Assembly (NCBI GenBank): GCA_030280995.1
Contig: JASXTE010000014.1
Span: forward strand, 27,291,650-27,355,649
Source: Hemileia vastatrix
Taxonomy: Eukaryota; Basidiomycota; Pucciniomycetes; Pucciniales; Zaghouaniaceae
DNA length: 64,000 nucleotides
Direction: 5' to 3'
Shown: positions 54,243 through 55,236 of the stretch, one piece after another
Numbering within the stretch: position 1 is the first letter of the stretch
Layout of the letters: every line of letters begins with the position of its first letter
The notes under the pieces: generated by a model
Seen by the model: the letters and a program-made list of their open reading frames with translations, nothing else
Told to the model about the DNA's origin: nothing
The model's database searches: none
Program-made: the position numbers and the translations under genes

Positions 54243-55236
54243 TCATTTCAAATTTTTCTCTTTTAACTTTTCTCGAACAAATCTTTTCATCTTCTCCAAA
54301 ATTACCCTTATCTCCTTCCTGCATTTCTCAAATACCTCCTCCTCTCCTACCGGAACCACCTCTCCAATCTCCAACAGTTCCTCTGCCACGTCAAAGGAAG
54401 CAGCGTCGATAATTGTATCGACCTCCCCACACAACTCTTCTGCGAACCTAACTTGTCGACCCTGACGAGGCTTCTTTGACCACACCTGGTCCAGCGTTTC
54501 CTCAGGTTCTTCGATTCCACCCGTGACCGGAGGGTTTTCCTCAGTTGGCAAAAGTGACGCAGGTTCCCCAATTGGGTCTTCAATGGCATTCGAGGTCTAA
54601 ACAAGAACTCATCAGTAACCTCATCCCTAAAAAAAATAAATAAAAAATAAATAAATAAAAAAAACAACAACAAAAACTAAAACTTACTTCGAAGATAGGG
54701 TCAGGTTCTAAGAACAACCTTGGAGCCACCTCTACCTCTGCTTCTCTCTCCTCCTTGTCATCTTCAATGACCACCTGTTGTTTCTTGGGTTTCGGCCCTG
54801 GAACAGGGACTTCATCCTCATCTTCCTCCACCAATTCGTCGATCTCTTCTTCGACACCCCTTTTTGAACTTGTGGCCTGGGTTACCCAGGTTGTGATCTC
54901 ATTATTAAGTTCCTTGTCGTTCTCCCCCACAGATTGATCATCTCCAACCGAGACATCCCAAATGTCTTTGACCACCTCTTTTGTTTTAGGGATCACCCAA
55001 AACTTAGTCTTGGTGAATCGTTGTTCAATCTCTGCGTTCTTTGTCAACGCATCGCACGCCACTCGTCACCAACGGCAAAACTCGCATTTCTGGCAAGGGC
55101 CTTGAGTCGCCGTACTTTTGACACAGAAGTATTCCATCGCTTCACAAGCCGTGCAAGCCTGGGAAAACTTCCGCGTAACCATTCCCCCATCCGCTTTAGG
55201 GTGTGGAGGCATAGGTGTTGGGGTAGGACAGTTCAT
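54243..55236 (-). pseudogene. Antisense spliced zinc-cluster gene of element D (one TGA)
   Basis: The best preserved copy. ATG 55236-55234; exon 1 55236-54688 (183 codons); intron 54597-54687 (91 bp, GTAAGT...TGTTTAG); exon 2 54596-54243 (118 codons with TGA stop); about 300 aa. N terminus TPTPMPPHPKADGG, then CTACEAMEYFC, a 12-residue loop and CEFCRW.RRVAC, i.e. CX2CX6CX12CX2CX6C with an extra Cys in the loop. Next come FWVIPKTKEVVKDIWDVSVG, acidic stretches (DELVEEDEDEVP), basic KPKKQQ, a motif DQVWSKKPRQGRQVRFAEEL, and a Lys/Arg-rich C terminus. The single TGA (55066-55068) lies between CRW and RVAC and has no counterpart in A or E. TATA at 55331-55334 lies about 95 bp upstream. Function inferred from the cysteine spacing: nuclear DNA-binding regulator, unproven. 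Confidence 0.82.

Follow-up and report, generated by a model that had tools for sequence, protein, structure and literature searches.

A candidate spliced antisense gene with a six-cysteine motif in a Ty3/gypsy retrotransposon family of Hemileia vastatrix

A 64,000-nucleotide stretch of the rust fungus Hemileia vastatrix (GenBank assembly GCA_030280995.1, contig JASXTE010000014.1, positions 27,291,650 to 27,355,649 of the forward strand; hereafter the window) contains two complete Ty3/gypsy long terminal repeat (LTR) retrotransposons of one family, A and D, and a third member, E, that is inverted and truncated. All three carry a further gene, antisense to gag-pol, in the interval that separates pol from the 3' LTR. 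Comparison of copies supports a real protein-coding gene with splicing signals, kept under purifying selection, in this fungal family. Its predicted spliced product of about 300 residues bears six cysteines in an arrangement resembling that of fungal zinc clusters. We think it reasonably probable that the family encodes a nuclear regulator acting on its own LTRs, which is the best explanation overall.

Structure, splicing signals and promoter region

In D, exon 1 (54688..55236, minus strand) comprises 183 codons and is separated by an intron of 91 bp (54597..54687, GTAAGT...TAG) from exon 2 (54243..54596), which is open and consists of 117 codons and a stop. The A copy has the same layout on the same strand, with 183 codons in exon 1 (9149..9697), an intron of 54 bp (9095..9148) and exon 2 at 8648..9094. 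In the inverted copy E the gene lies on the plus strand, with 184 codons in exon 1 (39664..40215), an intron of 57 bp (40216..40272) and exon 2 at 40273..40710. The coordinates that an earlier note had assigned to the gene from the DNA letters (A 9697-8648, D 55236-54243, E 39664-40710) are thus confirmed, and so are its exon 1 and intron lengths; the introns interrupt the same codon boundary, in phase 0, and the donor is GTAAGT in all three. The TATA-like sequence GGGTATAA, placed by that note about 95 bp upstream, is found 95-98 bp or so before the ATG, at 9790..9797 (minus strand) in A, at 39567..39574 (plus strand) in E and at 55330..55337 (minus strand) in D, where it lies just within the internal region and adjoins the 3' LTR.

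Could splicing signals recur in the antisense direction by chance? The earlier note had thought this hard to believe, and the genomic copies bear it out. We searched this single genome (747.6 Mb in 791 contigs) with three queries, each of which returned at least 150 matches, beside 6728-6872 unscored first-look candidates per query. With exon 1 of D as query, 149 of the 150 matches listed cover residues 1-183 and the remaining one covers residues 1-182; by eye, 110 of these 150 contain no stop. The start codon, the GT and the AG are kept in every one of 51 distinct D-type copies, among them the window's own D. A branch-point motif, CTRAY, places its A 15-17 nucleotides before the intron end in 51/51 copies, compared with 4% of shuffled tails. 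Intron length in these copies ranges from 54 to 101 bp, while exon 1 measures 549 or 555 bp in 50 of the 51. Indels are distributed accordingly: exon 1 has merely 4, three of them in multiples of three, and the intron has 122, of which 65 are in threes. Types A and E are lightly sampled (7 and 21 copies). A donor GTAAGT (once GTAAGG) occurs at the matching position in 6/6 loci of A type and 15/20 of E type, and an acceptor in 6/6 and 12/20; elsewhere the script located no start, donor or acceptor. Exon 1 is open in 34/51 D-type copies and exon 2 in 20/51, and both are open with all signals present in 14/51 (window row not counted).

The region ahead of the gene is equally regular. On the gene's strand, the 3' LTR ends 87-113 bp before the ATG in 50 of 51 D-type copies, and GGGTATAW is present at -93 to -103 in 47 of them; a spacer lies downstream of the gene in 49/51 D-type loci. 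The block around the LTR end is nearly invariant across the three types. It includes an inverted repeat, TGTCA-N7/9-TGACA, found at the LTR end in 48/51 D-type copies, in all six A-type copies with enough upstream sequence and in the one such E-type copy (1/1); this repeat takes in the LTR terminus, which integrase needs as well, and its conservation is no proof of a regulatory site. The TATA-like box falls outside the LTR, immediately next to it, and an equivalent outward transcript is therefore not expected from the corresponding 5' LTR.

Selection on the antisense frame and the age of the gene

The earlier note had proposed a dN/dS analysis of the antisense frame, and its outcome favours a gene. 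Among A, D and E, the ratio of nonsynonymous to synonymous divergence (omega) is 0.136 and 0.084 for two pairs, the third pair being saturated; dN is about 0.24, and dS is 1.7, 3.1 or beyond estimate. In four of the five other frames omega is 0.85-1.9. The fifth, a sense frame sharing third codon positions with the gene, is also low (0.18-0.30), which is what could be said for a chance open frame or for one moulded by a sense gene that overlaps it. Yet that sense frame has the higher ratio and contains more stops (3-6 per copy, versus 1-4 in the antisense frame). Located past pol, the interval occupied by the gene shows 7-18 stops in each frame of the sense strand. When D was shuffled by mononucleotides, not one of 2000 shuffles contained a frame of 183 codons with no more than one stop. 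The comparison of frames and the counts of stops together lead us to regard this explanation as refuted, with next to no probability left to it.

Larger samples agree. For proportions of nonsynonymous (pN) and synonymous (pS) differences we used 78 copies (50 of D, 7 of A and 21 of E type, after one was dropped and duplicates were removed), a set partly chosen for an open exon 1. Over 1547 between-type pairs, median pN is 0.15-0.16 and median pS 0.75-0.77; for pairs of the same type pN/pS is 0.27-0.33. Because synonymous sites are saturated and nonsynonymous divergence between types amounts to merely 0.15-0.25 or so, selection has kept the protein. Values of pS above 0.75 had raised the suspicion of a synonymous 'repulsion' between copies; we rejected it, as codon shuffles show identical codons above expectation in 3/3 pairs.

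The frequency of variants tells when this selection may have acted. In exon 1 of the 51 D-type copies, variants present in at least 5 copies are nonsynonymous or synonymous in a ratio of 38:46, and singletons in a ratio of 109:48 (Fisher p 3e-4); for both exons the corresponding figures are 58:66 and 277:107 (p 4e-7). Older variants are poorer in amino-acid changes, which is what would be left by selection before insertion and decay afterwards.

Is the gene as old as the element around it? In all seven block comparisons of gag-pol among A, D and E (gag, reverse transcriptase, integrase and pol end), pS is only 0.10-0.24, whereas the synonymous sites of the antisense gene are saturated between the types. 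The elements are about 90% identical along most of gag-pol but 63-73% identical, by window, in the antisense gene, and their LTRs are intermediate (75-90% by BLAST or window). Between A and E, identity drops from 0.90 to 0.76 at the pol end (about 7.69 kb in A). Over 72 pairs of A-type and D-type copies, the median difference is 0.108 at the pol end and 0.289 in exon 1; within types, the two regions differ alike (0.06 and 0.07). Synonymous sites being indifferent to the gene that hosts them, the gene types look older than the adjoining pol. This mismatch would be explained best if a single gag-pol had spread, by recombination, through elements whose 3' modules were old and distinct. A topological shuffling of gene against pol was considered and rejected: in trees of 19 copies with at least 300 bp of pol end (12 of D, 6 of A and 1 of E type, drawn from 66 loci and the 3 window copies), both regions separate A and D types, and only branch length differs.

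The predicted protein and its possible role

The arrangement CX2CX6CX12CX2CX6C, reported for D in the earlier note, is indeed present there, and all six cysteines are complete in 64 of the 78 copies (7/7 A, 44/50 D, 13/21 E); a further 12 miss exactly one. A seventh cysteine of D (residue 48) is not conserved (18/51). In 35 open copies the first CX2CX6C loop mostly reads EAMEYF or ESMEYF, and the second contains a basic RWRRVA. A basic PKKRRV-like cluster, which we take to resemble the nuclear signal of simian virus 40, occurs in 43/59 copies; in most of the others R is replaced by Q or W, a change that decaying CGR codons might produce. An acidic stretch and then the helical C-terminus, a prediction, follow the basic cluster. 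Fungal Zn(2)Cys(6) proteins have the pattern CX2CX6CX5-12CX2CX6-8C, and basic residues are usual in the first of their CX2CX6C loops.

From these features we propose the following course of events. Transcription would start probably just outside the 3' LTR, from the TATA-like box about 98 bp before the ATG, with the antisense face of the LTR serving as upstream promoter. One short intron would be removed and the protein of about 300 residues made. With its N-terminal six-cysteine motif, PKKRRV-type signal, acidic middle and helical C-terminus, the protein would enter the nucleus, bind zinc and DNA or chromatin, and tune transcription from the LTRs of its own subfamily, much as HBZ of human T-lymphotropic virus (HTLV) or the proteins of antisense open reading frames (aORF-3R) in plant elements are thought to do. 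By analogy, control of the element's own LTRs may be expected, because those proteins are regulators or suspected regulators.

A number of results weigh against a functional zinc-cluster regulator. Every window copy is broken by in-frame stops, a fact that the earlier note had overlooked. D has one in exon 1 (TGA at codon 57, within the zinc motif) and none in exon 2; A has one in exon 1 (TGA at codon 46) and one in exon 2 ahead of the end; E has two in exon 1 (TGA at codon 29, TAG at codon 79) and two in exon 2 ahead of the end, and retains four of the six cysteines, a stop having replaced one of the other two. The genomic copies share ancestry and were gathered by similarity to a query, with the gene itself as bait, and the 6 loci of A type and 20 of E type come from matches whose exon 1 had no stop. 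Such choices raise the shares of intact genes and of complete cysteine motifs. Exon 2 is preserved less well: of its 26 indels in D-type copies, 18 have lengths other than multiples of three, and its match holds stops in 6/7 A, 14/51 D and 16/20 E copies. In all three types such stops recur 6-9 codons past a KKP motif. We read the recurrent stops as decay at a mutable place or as a common truncated lineage; alternatively, they may mark a shorter functional form, and one stop frequent in E-type exon 2 is close to the C-terminus, where the protein may naturally end.

Family assignment met with similar difficulty. The cysteine spacing claimed for a zinc-cluster regulator stands, but membership of the Zn(2)Cys(6) family does not follow from the profile search and structure prediction that the earlier note had suggested. 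Pfam Zn_clus gave sub-threshold matches in 13/27 copies (best E 0.32) and none in the proteins of window copies A, D and E; in the one member shown in full it scored 11.4 bits across 13 residues, against a gathering cut-off of 21, and it was outscored by the unrelated weak matches Death_3 (best E 0.0062) and TRAM (0.0088). An AlphaFold prediction of exon 1, made with 3 sequences, reached a mean predicted local distance difference test (pLDDT) of 32, with no fold obtained. The exon 2 model consists of helices only and is moderate (mean pLDDT 62, 45 of 117 residues at pLDDT 70-90). We found no related solved structure for the protein. The protein collection yielded no homologue, though it holds gag relatives from Puccinia and Austropuccinia: none of 7995 scored candidates reached E 0.01, in a search probably crowded by low-complexity words, and a repeat search with residues 10-110 of one open copy gave no candidate sharing three words. 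The viral contig collection likewise gave no match. A protein that lacks relatives where rust gag relatives are found points to a gene that is restricted in its distribution, evolves fast or has gone unannotated elsewhere.

Could the protein act elsewhere than on the LTRs? A role on the side of the host, such as opposing the element's silencing, or binding host chromatin to help integration or nuclear import of the pre-integration complex, has a modest chance of being correct. Acidic and nuclear-signal-like stretches fit such a role equally well, and the types differ far more in the antisense gene than in gag-pol, as a gene in conflict with its host might; on the other hand, protein change between types is conservative relative to synonymous change, and Pfam revealed no silencing-suppressor or integration domain. 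We consider it rather unlikely that the product is a metal-binding nucleic-acid chaperone or a structural accessory of the particle, a gag-like role in place of transcriptional regulation. It would suit the six conserved cysteines and the basic residues between the last two, but their spacing is not that of CCHC motifs, a nuclear-type basic signal is present, and the protein would come from an antisense mRNA of its own rather than together with gag. Far less probable still is that the transcript works as RNA, pairing with genomic RNA and feeding RNA interference or self-limitation, with the frame incidental to it. Control by antisense promoters and double-stranded RNA is discussed for plant LTR elements in the relevant part of PMC7264820, and exon 2 is often broken in A-type and E-type copies, but selection at the protein level, the scarcity of exon 1 indels and the conserved splice and branch-point signals speak strongly against it.

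If an element-encoded nuclear regulator does control its LTR, it gives a way to approach the question why families of this sort expand in the very large genomes of rusts, and it would show that antisense regulators of retroelements arose repeatedly. More tentatively, and with the odds against so far-reaching a picture, a fungal element may have evolved, independently of HTLV and of plant Retand, an LTR-linked spliced antisense gene for a new class of zinc-cluster nuclear regulators, each protein matched to its own LTR. Regulator-plus-LTR modules would then be much older than gag-pol, and subfamilies would trade the replication core while keeping private control. The excess divergence of the antisense gene over gag-pol makes an exchange of modules between subfamilies directly testable.

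The carrier elements and known antisense genes

The carrier of the antisense gene is a Ty3/gypsy LTR retrotransposon. Element A (2040..10607, plus strand) has LTRs at 2040-2843 and 9805-10607, a target duplication ATCCT, gag at 3125-3739, a reverse transcriptase open reading frame (ORF) at 4685-5377 and an integrase ORF at 6087-6845. Element D (46207..56114, plus strand) has a 5' LTR at 46207-46976 and a 3' LTR at 55345..56114, bounded by TG..CA, a target duplication CATAC and gag at 47253-47891. In both, the two LTRs are about 4% apart (Kimura two-parameter distance 0.043 each). Element E (38749..43737, minus strand) retains a single LTR (38749-39559), the antisense gene and a portion of pol. 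LTRs of the A/D family begin with TGTCAC and finish with GTGACA, and the target duplications are of 5 bp, as expected of Ty3/gypsy elements. Pfam recognizes RVT_1 and Integrase_H2C2 above cut-off in pol of A, with rve below it and integrase downstream of reverse transcriptase, and in gag of D Retrotrans_gag above cut-off and Ty3_capsid just below. With gag of D as query, 50 proteins matched at 36-61% identity, 48 of which are named from Puccinia sorghi, Austropuccinia psidii or P. striiformis. The antisense gene is present in A, D and E alike; the genomic copies were found through the gene itself.

Some further observations concern these elements and their neighbours. A stretch of about 267 bp in or beside A, E and D (7686-7952, 43045-43311 and 52505-52770) is 98-99.6% identical, far more alike than its surroundings; within E it sits between pieces of pol, and it looks like a young small insertion. 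Inspection by eye of 2844-2900, 9745-9804, 46977-47030 and 55284-55343 revealed neither the usual polypurine tract upstream of the 3' LTR nor an evident primer site of TGG type downstream of the 5' LTR in the A/D family, whose priming may be unusual. Another Ty3/gypsy element, C (23121-32758), has an unbroken gag-pol ORF of 1948 residues (25158-31004), and its LTRs differ at 1 of 1504 sites, so that it is very young; only 250 bp separate its pol from the LTR, which leaves no space for an antisense gene. A Ty1/copia element at 58517-63017 has largely open frames for gag (58517-59182), integrase (59157-60788) and reverse transcriptase (60867-63017). A scan of the window detected no tRNA, and no Rfam family reached its gathering score.

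How does the antisense gene compare with those already known? As the earlier note had mentioned, antisense extra ORFs exist in some plant Ty3/gypsy elements: the sections on aORF-3R in PMC7264820 and PMC11963269 describe gene23 of maize Grande, rice RIRE2 and Silene Retand (TRP28 domain), which lie in antisense orientation in the interval from pol to the 3' LTR and are present in most copies. For Grande a promoter of its own and a nuclear protein are described there, and for TRP28 a predicted DNA binding (PMC7264820, PMC11963269). The words 'intron' and 'fungi' do not occur in the main text of either article. Word searches of the text of five articles on fungal transposable elements (PMC12210899, PMC8063080, PMC10067951, PMC3248453, PMC3411680) led to no fungal antisense gene; PMC3248453 mentions additional domains such as chromodomains, and the word 'antisense' is absent from the text searched. 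In full-text searches of the open literature we met no antisense gene of a fungal retroelement and none with this cysteine motif. The kind of gene is thus known from plants, and a fungal case with conserved spliced structure and motif was not met in the literature searched. The gene of the A/D/E family shares with plant aORF-3R its antisense place between pol and the 3' LTR. It differs in its fungal host, in being a compact single-intron gene with clear splice signals, in its six-cysteine zinc-cluster-like motif, in a TATA-like box hard against the LTR and in giving no TRP28 match (PF04195 was absent among Pfam matches at E up to 10).

HBZ is a basic leucine zipper protein without a zinc cluster; it is made from a spliced mRNA and has acidic and basic regions and a helical C-terminus. 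The text on HTLV-1 in PMC7264820 and PMC11963269 describes it as an antisense gene with an antisense promoter in the 3' LTR, whose product is nuclear and important in the virus life cycle. The present gene resembles it as an antisense retroelement gene linked to the 3' LTR, with splicing signals, acidic and basic regions and a predicted helical C-terminus. Unlike HBZ, its product has a zinc-cluster-like motif, and going by these descriptions we take the two to be of separate origin. With fungal Zn(2)Cys(6) proteins of the Gal4 type (PF00172) the predicted protein shares the spacing CX2CX6CX12CX2CX6C, the N-terminal place of the motif, an acidic stretch and helices beyond. Unlike these, it remains far below the Pfam cut-off, has its basic residues in the second loop and is encoded by a retroelement.
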